Notes under the pieces: model-generated | What the model saw: only the letters and a program-made list of their open reading frames with translations | What the model was told of the DNA's origin: nothing | Database searches by the model: none | Part shown: positions 2,707-52,200 of the stretch, one piece after another | Layout: the number at the start of each line of letters is the position of its first letter | How positions within the stretch are numbered: position 1 is the first letter of the stretch | Translations under genes and position numbers: made by a program | Origin: a virus | DNA length: 64,000 bases | Strand: one strand, 5' to 3' | IMG/VR virus record: IMGVR_UViG_3300002143_000079 | Location: 1 to 64,000 of that record

Positions 2707-3459
2707 TCATTGGATATTTTTTATTTTTCGTTTGTGGTATTTTACCGTCGTCATTCCAAGATTATATTTAGTAGACAATTCAACAACGGTCAGTAACCCA
2801 TCTTTTATATCCTGATATAAAAGTGGTTTAATTGTTTTCATCCTAGATTTACTTTCTTTTATACGTAATTTACATTCGTCGGTCATTTTACCAACCACTC
2901 TACCGGATAGATTATTGGAATATACGTAATTTATTTTTCGATTTCTCAACTTCTCAATTCTTTCTTGATACTTTTGCGGACCTTCACTTCCATATTTTTC
3001 AATAAACCAATTACGTGTAAATCGTCCCTTGGCTTTTCTTTTTTGGATAGAAATAGAATCATTTGAGTGACGTTTTCCAAACATCGGATTATTTTCACCT
3101 GAACAAATGGTTTTCATTTTCTCAATAAACTGTTCTTTATTTGGATTGTTAGTGATGTTGTCTCCACCACTTGCGGTGGAACAAATGTTATATCCCACGT
3201 CTCTTAAATATGGTTTAAATGTATCCAAGTAAAATTGTTCTCTAATAATCAACTGACCCAAATCCACCAGTTCTATTACATCAAACCGGAATTTACCCTC
3301 CCCATATAAATTCCACGCATTTTGTAATTTTTGATTTACATGACAACCATCATTAAGATTTCGACGGTGTTCCACCCACCGACCATCAATGTTTTTAGAT
3401 GACCCTATATAAAAACGGTGGGTTTCAACATTTGTTATTTTATAAATACCACTAATCAT
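2707..3459 (-). CDS. GIY-YIG homing endonuclease with NUMOD3-type motif
   Basis: A 250-residue Seg-like nuclease. The GIY-YIG catalytic domain is at the N-terminus: GIYKITN, then FYIGSS, with an Arg in the following helix and a Glu (REQFYLD) at the expected later position. Residues near 120-130 (GENNPMFGKRHS) match the NUMOD3 DNA-binding motif, and the basic C-terminal third (KYNLGMTTVKYHKRK) looks like a helix-turn-helix. It is a free-standing mobile gene placed after the major capsid gene's terminator, with its own TATTTAT element 5 nt before the ATG. Confidence 0.85.
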   Translation of the reverse strand: MISGIYKITNVETHRFYIGSSKNIDGRWVEHRRNLNDGCHVNQKLQNAWNLYGEGKFRFDVIELVDLGQLIIREQFYLDTFKPYLRDVGYNICSTASGGDNITNNPNKEQFIEKMKTICSGENNPMFGKRHSNDSISIQKRKAKGRFTRNWFIEKYGSEGPQKYQERIEKLRNRKINYVYSNNLSGRVVGKMTDECKLRIKESKSRMKTIKPLLYQDIKDGLLTVVELSTKYNLGMTTVKYHKRKIKNIQ

Positions 3460-9022: not shown

Positions 9023-9889
9023 TTATTTCAATCCGGCTTTGATTTCTTTAATCAATTCATATGAGAGTAACAACAACATGACGTGATTATCTTTAACACC
9101 CTTACTCAAATTTATCTTATTTAACTGATTATTTACTTCGTTAATTTTGATGCGGATAATTTGTGAATCAATATTTGGAGATAAATCTTCCAATTCTTTT
9201 TGAATTTTACTCTTTTCTTCCGCAATAAATGTAGAAATATGTGTTGTGTTAGACACTCCGTTGATATATTCCTTCAACATTCTCTTCTGACTTGAATCTA
9301 AGGAGTTGTATTTACTGTTGAGTTTTTCAACCAAGAATTTATATGCCAATAAACGAACTTCTTCACTTTCCTTTCTGTAATACTCCAACAATTCATCGTC
9401 TTTAACCTGATTATCCTTCTTATTGACAACTAAATTTTCCAATAAGAAGGATTTGGCTTTAACTACATCTTCAATTCTAAAACTGTTTGATTCGATGTGA
9501 TTTTCAAATACTTTGTAGATAGATGCGTGAACTTTATAATTTTTAATACTCGATTTTAGAAATGCGTCGATGGGATATGTTTCCTTAATTTCCTTGATTA
9601 AATCGTATTTTTCCTGATTGAGTTGTTTGGTATTAAGGGATTCCCTCGTTTTTAACACCACCGAAAGTGATTGTTCCGCTTTAGACTCAGTAAGAAACTG
9701 TTCATTGACGAGGAAGTTGTATAACTGCCACTCCTTCCCAAGCTGTTTGCTTTCTTTAAAATACTTGAATAGAATATCTTTAGCTTTCGACTCGTTTTTA
9801 CCCGCCAAAATGTCGGCGGTCACTTGTCTCGCTAATAATTCAAATAATATTCCCGTATTTTTGAATTTCGAATGTTTAGACTTATGCAT
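9023..9889 (-). CDS. Conserved portal-adjacent helical protein
   Basis: An almost entirely alpha-helical 288-residue protein that opens with KFKNTGILFELLARQVTADI, a segment conserved in proteins next to the portal gene in many environmental T4-like phages. The rest is Lys/Glu/Leu-rich. Its function is not known to me; a role in prohead assembly is suggested by its place between gp20 and gp21. A TATTTAT element lies about 21 nt upstream, and an AAGG sequence 13-17 nt before the ATG could serve as a ribosome-binding site. Confidence 0.7.
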   Translation of the reverse strand: MHKSKHSKFKNTGILFELLARQVTADILAGKNESKAKDILFKYFKESKQLGKEWQLYNFLVNEQFLTESKAEQSLSVVLKTRESLNTKQLNQEKYDLIKEIKETYPIDAFLKSSIKNYKVHASIYKVFENHIESNSFRIEDVVKAKSFLLENLVVNKKDNQVKDDELLEYYRKESEEVRLLAYKFLVEKLNSKYNSLDSSQKRMLKEYINGVSNTTHISTFIAEEKSKIQKELEDLSPNIDSQIIRIKINEVNNQLNKINLSKGVKDNHVMLLLLSYELIKEIKAGLK

Positions 9890-9910
9890 ATATCTAATTT
9901 ACCTTAATTT

Positions 9911-9917
9911 ATAAATA
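9911..9917 (-). promoter_or_regulatory. TATTTAT element
   Basis: About 21 nt before the ATG at 9889, in the gap that follows the portal gene. Confidence 0.4.
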
Positions 9918-11981: not shown

Positions 11982-13184
11982 TTATAACAACCACTTTAGA
12001 TCTTCTCTTTCTCTATTTGGATTTGTTAATGAACTACCGGCTGATGAAGGCATGCTCCAATAATCATGAGATTTCTTTGTTTGGGATGTATAAATAACCT
12101 CGGTATCACCTGTTTTACTAATACCTCCGATTAATGATTTAACATACTCCCCGGATTCAGATTTGAGTCTAAGTGCTGTATCTCTTACCCATAATCCCAT
12201 ACCCAATGAAGTAACTAAATCGTCATTATATCCAGTCATTGCTTGTGCTTTTCCATTATTCCAGATGAAGACGGATAATTCTTCATATAATCGAATCGAG
12301 TTTGTAATAACACTACGTTCTCTGAAATAATCTTCCAATTTCGAAATTATAAGTGGTCTGGTTTTGGTGGTTGTGGTGAAACCCGGAACCATGTTTCTCT
12401 CAATTCGATGATGTTTGTTAGTTAATTGTTTTTCCAAATCGACGTAGTGTAAATCGGCACTACTATAAAATGTATTTGGATACTGTGAATCAATAACCTG
12501 TTGTAGAGTTGCCCATCCGATGTTGTTATTTTCCACGACCAATATTGCTTTATTATACTCGACTGCCATACTGACGAGTAGATTTCCATAAGTCTTGGTA
12601 TCTACCGCACCTTTAAATTCCGCAACCTGTGTCAATGATTCCATTTCAAGAACGTGAAATGCGGAATAATCATCACCATCACCACGAGCAACGTCGGCGC
12701 AAATCAAATAATTCTTCGTATAATCTGGATATTCCCAAATCCATAGACTTTGGTTTGCAAATCGTTTTTCTATTGGGTCTTTAATTCTATTTTCTTTAAT
12801 CCATTTCAACGTATCGGTTTCCAATACGGTATGGCCAGTTGTTGTAAAATCACAATTATGTGAGACAATCCCATCGACGTAAAAAATATTCCCACCAGTA
12901 ACTTCTACTATATCATATAATAGTATTGAATCATTAATTTTTTCAATACATTTAACTGTAGTATATTTATTAAGTTGACGTGAATCTAAAATAGTGCCAA
13001 TTGATAATTCCGAACATTTTATTTCTTTTCCATTAGATATAAATGGGTGTGTGAGTGAACATTTGAGAACTGTTCCATCCGATAATGTCAATTTTACATG
13101 TTCGGATTTCTCCAACTTTCTAATTCCTTCAAAATGTTGAAATCCAGACGGCGTTTGTATTTCATATTTATTATTTTTAATCAT
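11982..13184 (-). CDS. 17: Terminase large subunit, C-terminal half with C-intein
   Basis: 400 residues from the ATG at 13184, which overlaps the stop of the homing endonuclease gene; a TTG 15 nt further up is possible but less likely. Residues 1-110 are the intein C-part: TPSGFQHFEGI, the block B motif SLTHPF, LLYDIVEV (block F) and the splice end VSHN. The +1 extein residue is Cys. Residues 111-400 are the packaging nuclease, with RNase H-type acidic residues in CADVARGDGDD, LVVENNN and GYNDDLV. After trans-splicing with the product of 13928-14770 the enzyme would be about 538 residues. Confidence 0.92.
   Translation of the reverse strand: MIKNNKYEIQTPSGFQHFEGIRKLEKSEHVKLTLSDGTVLKCSLTHPFISNGKEIKCSELSIGTILDSRQLNKYTTVKCIEKINDSILLYDIVEVTGGNIFYVDGIVSHNCDFTTTGHTVLETDTLKWIKENRIKDPIEKRFANQSLWIWEYPDYTKNYLICADVARGDGDDYSAFHVLEMESLTQVAEFKGAVDTKTYGNLLVSMAVEYNKAILVVENNNIGWATLQQVIDSQYPNTFYSSADLHYVDLEKQLTNKHHRIERNMVPGFTTTTKTRPLIISKLEDYFRERSVITNSIRLYEELSVFIWNNGKAQAMTGYNDDLVTSLGMGLWVRDTALRLKSESGEYVKSLIGGISKTGDTEVIYTSQTKKSHDYWSMPSSAGSSLTNPNREREDLKWLL
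12855..13184 (-). other. C-terminal fragment of an atypically split intein
   Basis: The first 110 codons of the downstream terminase gene. Block B (TxxH) and blocks F and G are all here, ending in His-Asn before Cys+1. The 32-residue N-part is on a separate gene, so the break lies between blocks A and B. Canonical split inteins break later, at the endonuclease insertion site. Confidence 0.9.
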
Positions 13185-13899
13185 ATTTAATCCGTACAAA
13201 TTTACATCCTAGAAAATTTTCTATCTCAACTTGTCTCTGTAAATCTTTGTTTTTTAGTTTTCCATTTTTAAAATGTCTCGGTTCATCAATCTCCAAAACA
13301 ACATTTTTTTCCTCATCATAAGCATCTAACCAATATCCTAAACTTGATAGAAACACTTCACCACCGTTTTCTGCGTGCCGAAAATTATATCCATTATCAC
13401 GTCCATATGATTCAATCAATTTAATTGCACTGCGATTATATCTAGGAACACATTTACCGGAACAATTTGATATATAATTTATGGCTGCAATTCTTTGTTT
13501 TTTCTTCGTTTCCGTAGAATGTGATTTACAAGTAACATGATATTCTGGACAATATCTACAATATGTGTTCCATGTATATCGTTTACCACATTTACATAGT
13601 AATTTCTGGACATCTGCATTTTTTTCTACTAAAAACAAAATACGATATTTGAAATTAAAATTTCCTTTGTATGATTTTTGACTTTTAAACGTTAATTCTA
13701 AAATAGAAGTCCATGTATATATTGATTTATACAAAATTGGATCAGATTTTATTAGAGTTCTGTTTTTTGCTTTACCAAACAAAGATTTATAAAAATTTTC
13801 ATGCTTTAATCTACTAACTGTCTCGGATAAAGAATAAAATTCATTAATAGAGTTCAATTCTAATTTTATATTATCCCAACCTAATTTAACATAATTCAT
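13177..13899 (-). CDS. Free-standing homing endonuclease, EDxHD (I-Bth0305I / Vsr-like) family
   Basis: A 240-residue protein encoded between the two terminase halves. The C-terminal catalytic region reads YWLDAYDEEKNVVLEIDEPR, then H and, about ten residues on, KDLQRQ. This gives the E-D-x-H-D arrangement of the Vsr-like family found in fractured phage genes. A Cys4 knuckle (CKCG about 20 residues before CRYC) and a basic N-terminal half probably recognise DNA. It would cut intein-less or unfractured terminase genes and drive spread of the cassette. It starts 28 nt after the upstream half's stop, with its own TATTTAT element, and overlaps the C-intein start. Confidence 0.85.
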   Translation of the reverse strand: MNYVKLGWDNIKLELNSINEFYSLSETVSRLKHENFYKSLFGKAKNRTLIKSDPILYKSIYTWTSILELTFKSQKSYKGNFNFKYRILFLVEKNADVQKLLCKCGKRYTWNTYCRYCPEYHVTCKSHSTETKKKQRIAAINYISNCSGKCVPRYNRSAIKLIESYGRDNGYNFRHAENGGEVFLSSLGYWLDAYDEEKNVVLEIDEPRHFKNGKLKNKDLQRQVEIENFLGCKFVRIKYD

Positions 13900-13917
13900 A
13901 CAGTCACATTCTTGCGT

Positions 13918-13924
13918 ATAAATA
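13918..13924 (-). promoter_or_regulatory. TATTTAT element before the homing endonuclease
   Basis: In the 28-nt gap after the N-terminal terminase gene, 18 nt before the endonuclease ATG. It could give the endonuclease and C-terminal terminase half their own late transcript. Confidence 0.45.
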
Positions 13925-13927
13925 GTG

Positions 13928-14770
13928 TTAATTTGATAAAGAGATGAATAATTCTTCCAATGTCATATAACTTACGACTTTGGTGTTTATATCTCGAACA
14001 CAAACTTTGGATTCTCCCCACAGACAATCACATTCTTGAGCCGAACCTTTTACACCGGACAATTCCGTTTGTTTATCTCGCCAGTGTTGATCTCTTTCTG
14101 GATGTAAATACCAAGGGAGGTTAATGGTATTGAATTCATTTTCATCTGCCGCTGCTTTCATCCACGTCTTATGAAAGAAATTACCAACACCGTTTGGAGT
14201 ACTGAGAATAATTGCTTTACCACCAGTAGATAGAGTGTATTGTGCGGACAACCAAATTTCTTCGATATTGTCAATGAAGGCTGCTTCGTCAATAATCAAC
14301 AATGAAAGTGCGGAAGAACGACCTGCATCACCGGATGATGAAACTGCTTTGATTTGAGAACCATTTTTTAATCGGAGGGAAAGCCGATTATCTTCAACAC
14401 ATTGTAATTTCAACCAAGAAGGTAGATTATTGTTTGCAAATCTTACCCGTGTAACAATTTCTTTCGACGTTTCTTGTTTGATACTGATACAGAGAATGTT
14501 TTTATCAGGATGGAAAATCATCATCCATAATGAGTATGCGGACGTCAGAGTGGTAATACCCATCTGACGTGATTTGAGAATAATGTTGTAATTATTATCG
14601 CATAATTCTCTCAACGCTTTTTCCTGAAATGGATAAAGTTCAAATGGAATTGTCCCCCGAAGCGGATGTTGAATTTTAACATACTTCTTCATGAAGTATA
14701 TTGGATCCACCAAACACCTAGAATACTCACTCTTAATTACATCTCGTAAATTAACTTTTGGGTCACTCAT
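13928..14770 (-). CDS. 17: Terminase large subunit, N-terminal half with N-intein
   Basis: 280 residues. Residues 1-248 are the packaging motor ATPase: a Walker A variant (LKSRQMGITT), Walker B with catalytic Glu (LLIIDEAAFI), and coupling motif ILSTPNG, ending SAQECD. Residues 249-280 are a 32-residue N-intein that starts CLWGESKVCVRD with Cys1 and ends at the stop. The protein lacks the nuclease domain, which is encoded 750 nt downstream. Its ATG overlaps the preceding zinc-knuckle gene by 8 nt. Activity requires protein trans-splicing with the other half. Confidence 0.92.
   Translation of the reverse strand: MSDPKVNLRDVIKSEYSRCLVDPIYFMKKYVKIQHPLRGTIPFELYPFQEKALRELCDNNYNIILKSRQMGITTLTSAYSLWMMIFHPDKNILCISIKQETSKEIVTRVRFANNNLPSWLKLQCVEDNRLSLRLKNGSQIKAVSSSGDAGRSSALSLLIIDEAAFIDNIEEIWLSAQYTLSTGGKAIILSTPNGVGNFFHKTWMKAAADENEFNTINLPWYLHPERDQHWRDKQTELSGVKGSAQECDCLWGESKVCVRDINTKVVSYMTLEELFISLSN
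13931..14026 (-). other. N-terminal fragment of the split intein, 32 residues
   Basis: It holds only block A (Cys1, then GESKVCVRD) and a short helix (MTLEELFISL). This is far shorter than the roughly 100-residue N-parts of DnaE-type split inteins, and close to the 25-residue N-part I recall for the AceL-TerL intein, also from a terminase. Confidence 0.9.
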
Positions 14771-17873: not shown

Positions 17874-17883
17874 AATGATGCCT

Positions 17884-17890
17884 ATAAATA
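17884..17890 (-). promoter_or_regulatory. TATTTAT element
   Basis: 10 nt before the ATG at 17873, filling most of the 21-nt gap after the recombination nuclease gene. Confidence 0.5.
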
Positions 17891-41738: not shown

Positions 41739-42485
41739 TCAGATTGACCGCCTTTTACGATTTTTCCACAAATTCTTCCGATGTGACTCCGATTTGGCAA
41801 CACCTTTGGTTTTTTGACGAATTTTTTCACGTCGTTCATTTTCTATTTCTTCTAAGGAAACCTTACCAAGTGTCCAACCTTTTATAGAAAGTCTTTTACC
41901 ATTTAAAAACAAATTTAACCCACCACTATCAACTTTGTATTTTTTTCTAAAATCATATGGTGTAAGAGTTTCGACTATTCCCATTGATTCGTTGTAAAAG
42001 GCATATTTTGTTTTAATGTAACGTGCATTATTAATTCCTGTATGAGCGATACGATTTTTCTCTTTTTGTTTTTTTGTCTTCGGTTTACCATACATATAGG
42101 ATTTTTCACCCCTATTTGCCAAACTTTGTTTTATACGTGTTTCCAGACGTCTTTCGGAAACCCCCGACCAACTTTTCAAATAATTGCACAAATTTTCCAT
42201 ACCGTAGAAATCTATAAATGCGGATTCTAATGATAACGCCTCTATTTCCACGACGTTCTCAATCAACTTTTCATACTTTGGAGACAAACCTTTTTTAACT
42301 AGGTCATAAATCTTATTAAACAACTTATAGTTTGTCTTGTTAGGAACTTTTCCCAACCTCACATCTTTTTCATGTTTATACATTCTATTACCACACCCCT
42401 TACCGACGTAAAATACTTCGTCTGTAAGGGGATGTGACAATTGATAGGTGTAATATTTATTAACTAAGGGAACCGTTTTCGACAT
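41739..42485 (-). CDS. GIY-YIG family homing endonuclease
   Basis: 248 residues. The catalytic domain is a GIY-YIG variant: YYTYQLSHP, then FYVGKGCGNR with the conserved Gly and Arg, and a Glu in the helix SLESAFIDFYG. GEKSYMYGKPKTKKQKE matches a NUMOD-type DNA-binding motif, and the tail is very basic (KNLWKNRKRRS). The gene is inserted between the sigma-factor and baseplate genes; its start overlaps the last 26 nt of the sigma-factor gene. Confidence 0.8.
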   Translation of the reverse strand: MSKTVPLVNKYYTYQLSHPLTDEVFYVGKGCGNRMYKHEKDVRLGKVPNKTNYKLFNKIYDLVKKGLSPKYEKLIENVVEIEALSLESAFIDFYGMENLCNYLKSWSGVSERRLETRIKQSLANRGEKSYMYGKPKTKKQKEKNRIAHTGINNARYIKTKYAFYNESMGIVETLTPYDFRKKYKVDSGGLNLFLNGKRLSIKGWTLGKVSLEEIENERREKIRQKTKGVAKSESHRKNLWKNRKRRSI

Positions 42486-49242: not shown

Positions 49243-49249
49243 ACGATGT

Positions 49250-49256
49250 ATAAATA
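49250..49256 (-). promoter_or_regulatory. TATTTAT element
   Basis: 7 nt before the ATG at 49242. Confidence 0.5.
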
Positions 49257-52182: not shown

Positions 52183-52193
52183 ATATGATGTTT

Positions 52194-52200
52194 ATAAATA
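52194..52200 (-). promoter_or_regulatory. TATTTAT element
   Basis: 11 nt before the ATG at 52182; the rightmost copy in front of a late gene in the window. Confidence 0.5.

Follow-up and report, generated by a model that had tools for sequence, protein, structure and literature searches.

A terminase gene split by an AceL/Cat-TerL-class intein carries an operator-like copy of the insertion site in front of a putative homing endonuclease gene

The large terminase subunit gene (terL) of the virus record IMGVR_UViG_3300002143_000079 (80 kb) is divided into two open reading frames (ORFs) bearing the parts of a split intein, and between them lies a third ORF for a putative homing endonuclease, which is preceded by a copy of one side of the intein insertion site. 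We analyzed positions 1 to 64,000 of this record, referred to as the window, and ORF analysis placed all three reading frames on the minus strand. The locus is composed of the following features:

13928..14770, minus strand: N-half of terL, 280 amino acids (aa), consisting of a 248-aa ATPase extein and a 32-aa N-intein; T4-type, matching Pfam Terminase_6N (E 9.5e-15) and PHROG terminase families
14024..14038, minus strand: N-side of the insertion site with the Cys1 codon, CAAGAATGTGATTGT (QECD/C, the slash marking the junction), as judged from the intact CARGARTGYGAYTGYGAYTTY site of inteinless relatives
13928..14026, minus strand: N-intein CLWGESKVCVRDINTKVVSYMTLEELFISLSN with stop codon, Cys1 codon at 14026-14024; assigned from the ORF and 44 distinct homologous split N-inteins
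13917..13924, minus strand: promoter-like TATTTATA, a strand-biased 8-mer found before five window genes, ending 2 nt ahead of the operator-like copy
13900..13914, minus strand: copy of the N-side of the insertion site (CAAGAATGTGACTGT), a putative operator adjoining the endonuclease ATG; assigned by sequence match and conservation
13177..13899, minus strand: free-standing EDxHD/Vsr-like candidate homing endonuclease, intact ORF of 240 aa; assigned from a 28-sequence alignment and an AlphaFold2 (AF2) model
12855..13184, minus strand: 110-aa C-intein, counted from ATG 13184, with its beginning overlapping the stop of the endonuclease ORF; assigned by profile search and AF2 fold
11982..12854, minus strand: C-extein (nuclease half) of terL, 290 aa, Cys+1 at 12854-12852; PHROG terminase, ORF

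In detail, the N-half extein terminates with ..GSAQECD, followed by the N-intein and a stop codon, and the C-half runs from ATG 13184 to 11982, with the C-intein ending in ..VDGIVSHN before Cys+1. The first listed start of the C-half is TTG 13199, which would add just five residues, and we prefer ATG 13184. The initial annotation had described a fractured terminase gene with Cys1 in a 32-aa N-intein at the end of the ATPase half, a 110-aa C-intein with SLTH and SHN before Cys+1 at the beginning of the downstream half, a split between intein blocks A and B, an endonuclease within the locus and a joined product of 538 residues. ORF analysis and the Pfam match bear this out: Cys1 is located in the short part, whereas SLTH and blocks F and G are located in the long part, the ORF between the halves is intact, and the exteins of 248 and 290 aa add up to a predicted spliced terminase of 538 aa. 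The copy in front of the endonuclease had been overlooked and seems to be what is new here. As the same array is present on the IMG/VR contigs 3300002138_000037 and 3300002141_000035 and the same anatomy is found on many diverged contigs, an assembly artefact as cause of the split is very unlikely.

The window intein contains Cys1, the block B T-x-x-H motif, the block G Asn and Cys+1. A profile built from 38 C-inteins and searched against the PDB gave 6dsl (“Consensus engineered intein CatC”, an atypical split intein derived from TerL) as top match (E 5.4e-25), followed at lower rank by gp41-1 (E 4.3e-12) and VidaL (E 4.4e-4). The AF2 model of the C-intein (pLDDT 90.6) also had 6dsl as top fold match (TM-score 0.80, prob 1.00), and the C-intein is 33% identical to the IntC of AceL-TerL (E 4e-19). 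Based on these three comparisons, the window intein is, by profile and predicted fold, a member of the AceL/GOS/Cat-TerL class, as had been supposed initially. AceL-TerL, GOS-TerL and Cat-TerL share the terL host, an IntN of 25-37 aa, an IntC of about 100-110 aa and the A/B split, and the window pair agrees with a T4-type terL host, the same split position and 32 + 110 aa with Cys1 and Cys+1. Unlike these systems, the window locus includes a natural endonuclease together with its control region.

The two halves would be joined by trans-splicing to the 538-aa terminase. The alternative would be that the halves are non-covalent subunits or that one half is dead. Against it, the splicing residues of N- and C-inteins are intact throughout the aligned loci, contiguous relatives of the same intein exist, and characterised homologues do splice (PMC11766414); we regard this alternative as extremely improbable.

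A scan of IMG/VR for the pattern QECDCLWG recovered 77 DNA stretches, which include at least 44 different split N-inteins of this type. With this number in IMG/VR and further cases in cultured phages, the earlier description as a rare class has to be softened, and what stands is a known atypical class. The majority of the 77 stretches have the endonuclease between the halves, and this fractured-gene arrangement with a free-standing endonuclease is shared by the window virus and the greater part of the remaining dereplicated loci with an endonuclease. Furthermore, there are terL halves without endonuclease (e.g. L004, L097, L103, L139, L149 and L156; L numbers are our locus handles), an endonuclease fused to the N-half (L151), endonuclease remnants (L101/102, L150, L158, L160) and contiguous mini-inteins of the same family in one ORF: L094 (3858-5177), L098 (1072-2364, reverse)/104/142 and L162 (3741-5030). 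The intein is absent from most close terL relatives of the window. L002, the closest relative without the intein (75% identical in the C-extein), has a terL gene that is uninterrupted and carries the exact empty site ..GSAQECDCDFTTTGH.., and such a patchy presence is the pattern expected of a mobile intein.

Among cultured phages, Aeromonas phage PX29 (gp17A/17B), Providencia PSTRCR_127, Serratia 92A1 and Vibrio VP-1 have terL split by an intein of the same type in the same region, and the PX29 halves are already annotated as N-intein and C-intein. These loci have GIY-YIG nucleases instead, which are free (Providencia, Serratia) or fused to the N-intein (VP-1) or C-intein (PX29), and no insertion-site copy was found in the GIY-YIG terL loci checked. 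Related split inteins are also located two codons upstream (QE/C) in L287, L290, L292, L297 and L298, and the copy is absent in several QE/C-inserted loci whose endonucleases carry an added N-terminal zinc-finger-like domain.

The endonuclease obtained no name from Pfam, NCBIfam or PHROGs, and a sequence search of the PDB gave no meaningful match. An alignment of 28 homologues from split-terL loci revealed invariant E177, E181, D192, E203, H209 and D219 and a shared CxC..CxxC knuckle; NUMOD3 was weakly matched in 14 of the 28. The AF2 model (pLDDT 89.7, pTM 0.56) gave weak fold matches to the catalytic domain of I-Bth0305I (3r3p, prob 0.90, E 0.19) and to Vsr (1vsr, prob 0.51, E 0.40), both ranking below other, poorer-looking fold matches. 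The EDxHD-like assignment, drawn from alignment and model, is thus that of a candidate and not proven. Fractured phage genes with similar free-standing endonucleases were reportedly described by Dassa et al. in 2009. Common to fractured genes of the I-Bth0305I type and the window are split halves flanking a free-standing endonuclease, whose E/D/H/D catalytic region is a putative one in the window, whereas the operator-like insertion-site copy and the atypical split set the window apart.

This copy is defined by the 15-nt sequence CAAGAATGTGAYTGT, of which the window has exactly two occurrences: one spans 14038-14024, where extein and intein meet, and the other (13914-13900) immediately precedes the ATG of the endonuclease. 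Its core is CAAGAATGTGA, and the register of the match with the junction can be extended to 18 nt at 89%. Scoring CARGARTGYGAYTGY upstream of each endonuclease in 29 loci dereplicated at 90% protein identity revealed a copy with at least 12 of 15 positions in 24 loci and at least 13 of 15 in 23, compared to 0.6% and 0.018%, respectively, of 11,191 random stretches of the same length from the same contigs. The copy is distributed widely over the endonuclease tree, with sporadic gaps, and a paired form is limited to one supported clade, here called clade B. The mean pairwise identity of the copy is 83% in single-copy loci and 88% within clade B, whereas the neighbouring 15-nt blocks reach 38-40% (50-56% in clade B) and the four-fold degenerate sites of the endonuclease 38%. 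Flanks and silent sites are saturated and the copy is retained; as the loci share ancestry, this retention is a stronger argument than the count of 24 loci.

Relative to the endonuclease, the copy lies in frames 0, 1 and 2 in 11, 5 and 11 loci, respectively. The copy itself supplies the start codon (C-ATG-AAT-..) in L003, L281 and L283. Therefore, the DNA appears to be kept and not a peptide encoded by the endonuclease gene, and a coding role of the copy in this ORF is ruled out by the occurrence of all three frames. At position 3, 21 of 23 copies carry A, whereas the junctions of the same loci carry G in 14 of 23 cases (one row, L151, is mis-scored, as L151 has no copy), which speaks against the copy having been converted from the junction recently. 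In L246, where the junction reads QEFDC, the copy is changed at the same codon (TAT versus TTT in the junction). It is suggestive from the sequence that the copy followed the junction here, in a single lineage; a scan for covarying copies with non-Cys codons returned the known L246/L247 contig pair and two unrelated coding matches, and nothing else.

The sequence ahead of the copy is promoter-like. A count of 8-mers over 685 upstream regions from contigs of this phage lineage gave ATATTTAT and TATTTATA as the two most strand-biased ones, each in 125 of 685 regions compared with 7 and 14 on the other strand. In the window, TATTTATA is located on the minus strand at 9910-9917, 13917-13924, 17883-17890, 49249-49256 and 52193-52200, and the ORFs that follow start 7-21 nt later, at 9889, 13899, 17873, 49242 and 52182. 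Judged from these frequencies, TATTTATA is the dominant promoter-like motif of this lineage. The initial annotation had proposed a likely late promoter, and a strongly strand-biased promoter-like motif at 13924-13917 is in line with a putative promoter, with “late” as a tentative label. TATTTATA is the reverse complement of the T4 late box TATAAATA, which itself occurs in 14 of the 685 regions. In nearly all single-copy loci a TATNTAT-like sequence ends 2 nt before the copy. If the spacing of T4 late promoters is applicable here, the copy should cover the transcription start, as TATNTAT ends 2 nt upstream of it. Across 210 TATTTATA sites with a nearby ATG, nine score at least 13 of 15 for the copy, all of them endonuclease sites, and the rest score at most 11. 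These other promoters, the control stretches and the conservation rule out a chance match.

The fate of the copy after loss of the endonuclease is of interest for the possibility that it is a neutral scar of endonuclease entry into the intein gene, i.e. a fragment of the target site carried along or duplicated without function. The sequence of the copy is that of one side of the insertion site, and its place is the border of the endonuclease cassette; in clade B as well as L003 it shares the reading frame of the N-half, at the end of which it lies (e.g. ..QECDYL or ..QEGDYL before the stop codon), as an in-frame duplication would give. Furthermore, it sometimes outlives the endonuclease: it is still there in L149 and L101/102 with deletions within the endonuclease, has one mismatch in L158 with a degraded endonuclease and is retained next to the remnant in L160. 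However, both are lost in L097, L139 and L156, and no trace of the copy was found in L004, where the endonuclease is wholly gone. Together with the 83% identity among deeply diverged loci and the fixed 2-nt spacing to the promoter-like motif, this makes a neutral scar appear unlikely. In L098 the intein is a single continuous chain, and its sequence suggests re-fusion of a formerly split intein that left a vestige of the copy: in the alignment, the linker LEDLYNKIQEPEYLL corresponds to the end of the N-half in clade B, LEDLYWNLQEGDYLL, and QEPEYLL is kept. This reading is based on the aligned peptide position, because the DNA match of 10/15 alone is not significant.

A functional precedent is known from phage T4, where intron endonucleases have homing-site-like operators over their own promoters (PMC2988022). 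I-TevI binds its operator as well as its homing site, the operator is cut about 100-fold less and the late promoter is repressed; hairpins add translational control (PMC2988022). As the arrangement in the window matches this logic feature by feature, with a homing-site-like sequence over the predicted TATTTATA promoter and judged against the inferred homing site, we infer that the endonuclease represses itself via the operator-like site. In our model, a mobile AceL/Cat-TerL-class split intein interrupts terL, and the products of the two ORFs would associate and undergo trans-splicing to the 538-aa terminase, driven by Cys1, His of block B, Asn of block G and Cys+1. Mobility of the element would come from the endonuclease, which would cleave terL genes lacking the intein at the conserved ...CARGARTGYGAYTGYGAYTTY... 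site. The enzyme would bind the copy without productive cutting, thereby blocking its own promoter; the missing C-side half of the site may explain why the copy stays uncut. Taken as a whole, this account is the best-supported reading and, in our view, likely.

A different role would be that of a weak cutting or recombination site, at which the endonuclease nicks its own locus and releases a donor end that aids homing. Some homing endonucleases reportedly bind and slowly cut their own sequence (PMC10448857), and the inverted pairs of clade B could bind a dimer, as described for I-Bth0305I on its target (PMC3943268). The absent C-side of the site, the promoter position, which would be unnecessary for such a role, and the cost of cutting its own essential gene speak against it, and we consider it quite unlikely.

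In clade B, the promoter-like box is located between a direct and an inverted copy, and RNA hairpins formed by pairing of these two copies are predicted with z-scores of -2.0 to -5.2 in the four loci tested. It seems feasible that these inverted copies and the hairpin add a second layer of control to autorepression. One could also assume that control acts at the RNA level throughout, by a hairpin or start-site element, with the likeness to the insertion site being secondary; besides the clade B hairpins, gp41-1 loci with a comparable hairpin around TATAAATA and no site copy would fit this. However, no hairpin was found in three single-copy loci including the window (z -0.85, 0.40 and -0.14), which rules out a general RNA hairpin for the single-copy clade, and the site sequence is what both clades conserve. 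The probability of this explanation is therefore very low, and the hairpin is retained as an extra layer in clade B.

In the gp41-1 loci (L168, L172, L178 and others), the region from the N-half stop to the start of the GIY-YIG gene contains a 12-bp hairpin, e.g. GTAAGTTATACT/AGTATAACTTAC, which encloses TATAAATA and resembles the translational hairpin of I-TevI in T4. A free-standing endonuclease between the halves with a promoter-like box near its start is common to these loci and the window, but they differ by the GIY-YIG nuclease, the typical split after block B and a hairpin with no insertion-site copy. NrdJ-1, which has a different nuclease, showed no significant copy (p 0.55).

With I-TevI, I-TevII and I-TevIII of T4 the loci described here share the site-like sequence over the own promoter and, in clade B, the promoter hairpin. 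The T4 systems are group I introns with GIY-YIG or HNH nucleases, in contrast to a split intein with an EDxHD-like nuclease, and the likeness is convergent, not homologous. With moderate confidence, we assume that the EDxHD split-intein nucleases independently evolved autorepression in the style of I-TevI, with a conserved half-copy on the promoter, an inverted pair in one clade, and loss or decay of the copy after death of the endonuclease, at which stage a return of the intein to a single chain is possible. Several observations weigh against the autorepression reading. The copy is absent at the intact-looking endonuclease genes L134, L151, L161 and L261 and weak in L132 and L152, and the copy-bearing loci share ancestry, so their matches are no independent events. 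The promoter status of TATTTATA is statistical only, copy and junction of L246 differ (TAT versus TTT), and the copy spans 15 nt compared with the nearly 60 bp recognised by I-Bth0305I (PMC3943268).

The intein class itself is already known, but the operator-like copy seems to be a new element; no earlier mention of the site repeat was found in the literature searched, which did not include key papers on this intein class, so that a prior mention is possible. The locus reveals the natural genetics of a split-intein class used for protein labelling, including gain, control and loss of the endonuclease, and the copies provide a readout of the target bases read by the nuclease in a family with few characterised members. 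If the operator reading is true, self-repression via a copy of the own target has at least two origins, which lie in unrelated nuclease families and in introns as well as inteins, and this would suggest a general need to restrain homing nucleases.

Further insertions and endonuclease-like genes were observed in the window and related phages. In the sister phages L003 (7213-11229), L004 (7210-11010) and L005 (7221-10169) the portal gene has an intein-like insertion after ..FRDYD/C, whereas the window portal is uninterrupted. Two window ORFs on the minus strand, 2707-3459 and 41739-42485, are GIY-YIG endonuclease-like by their first residues. In Vibrio phage VP-1 (L085, 837-3053), the terL N-half carries a second, contiguous intein near Walker A (QSRQSGK/C), and its N-intein is fused to a GIY-YIG domain.

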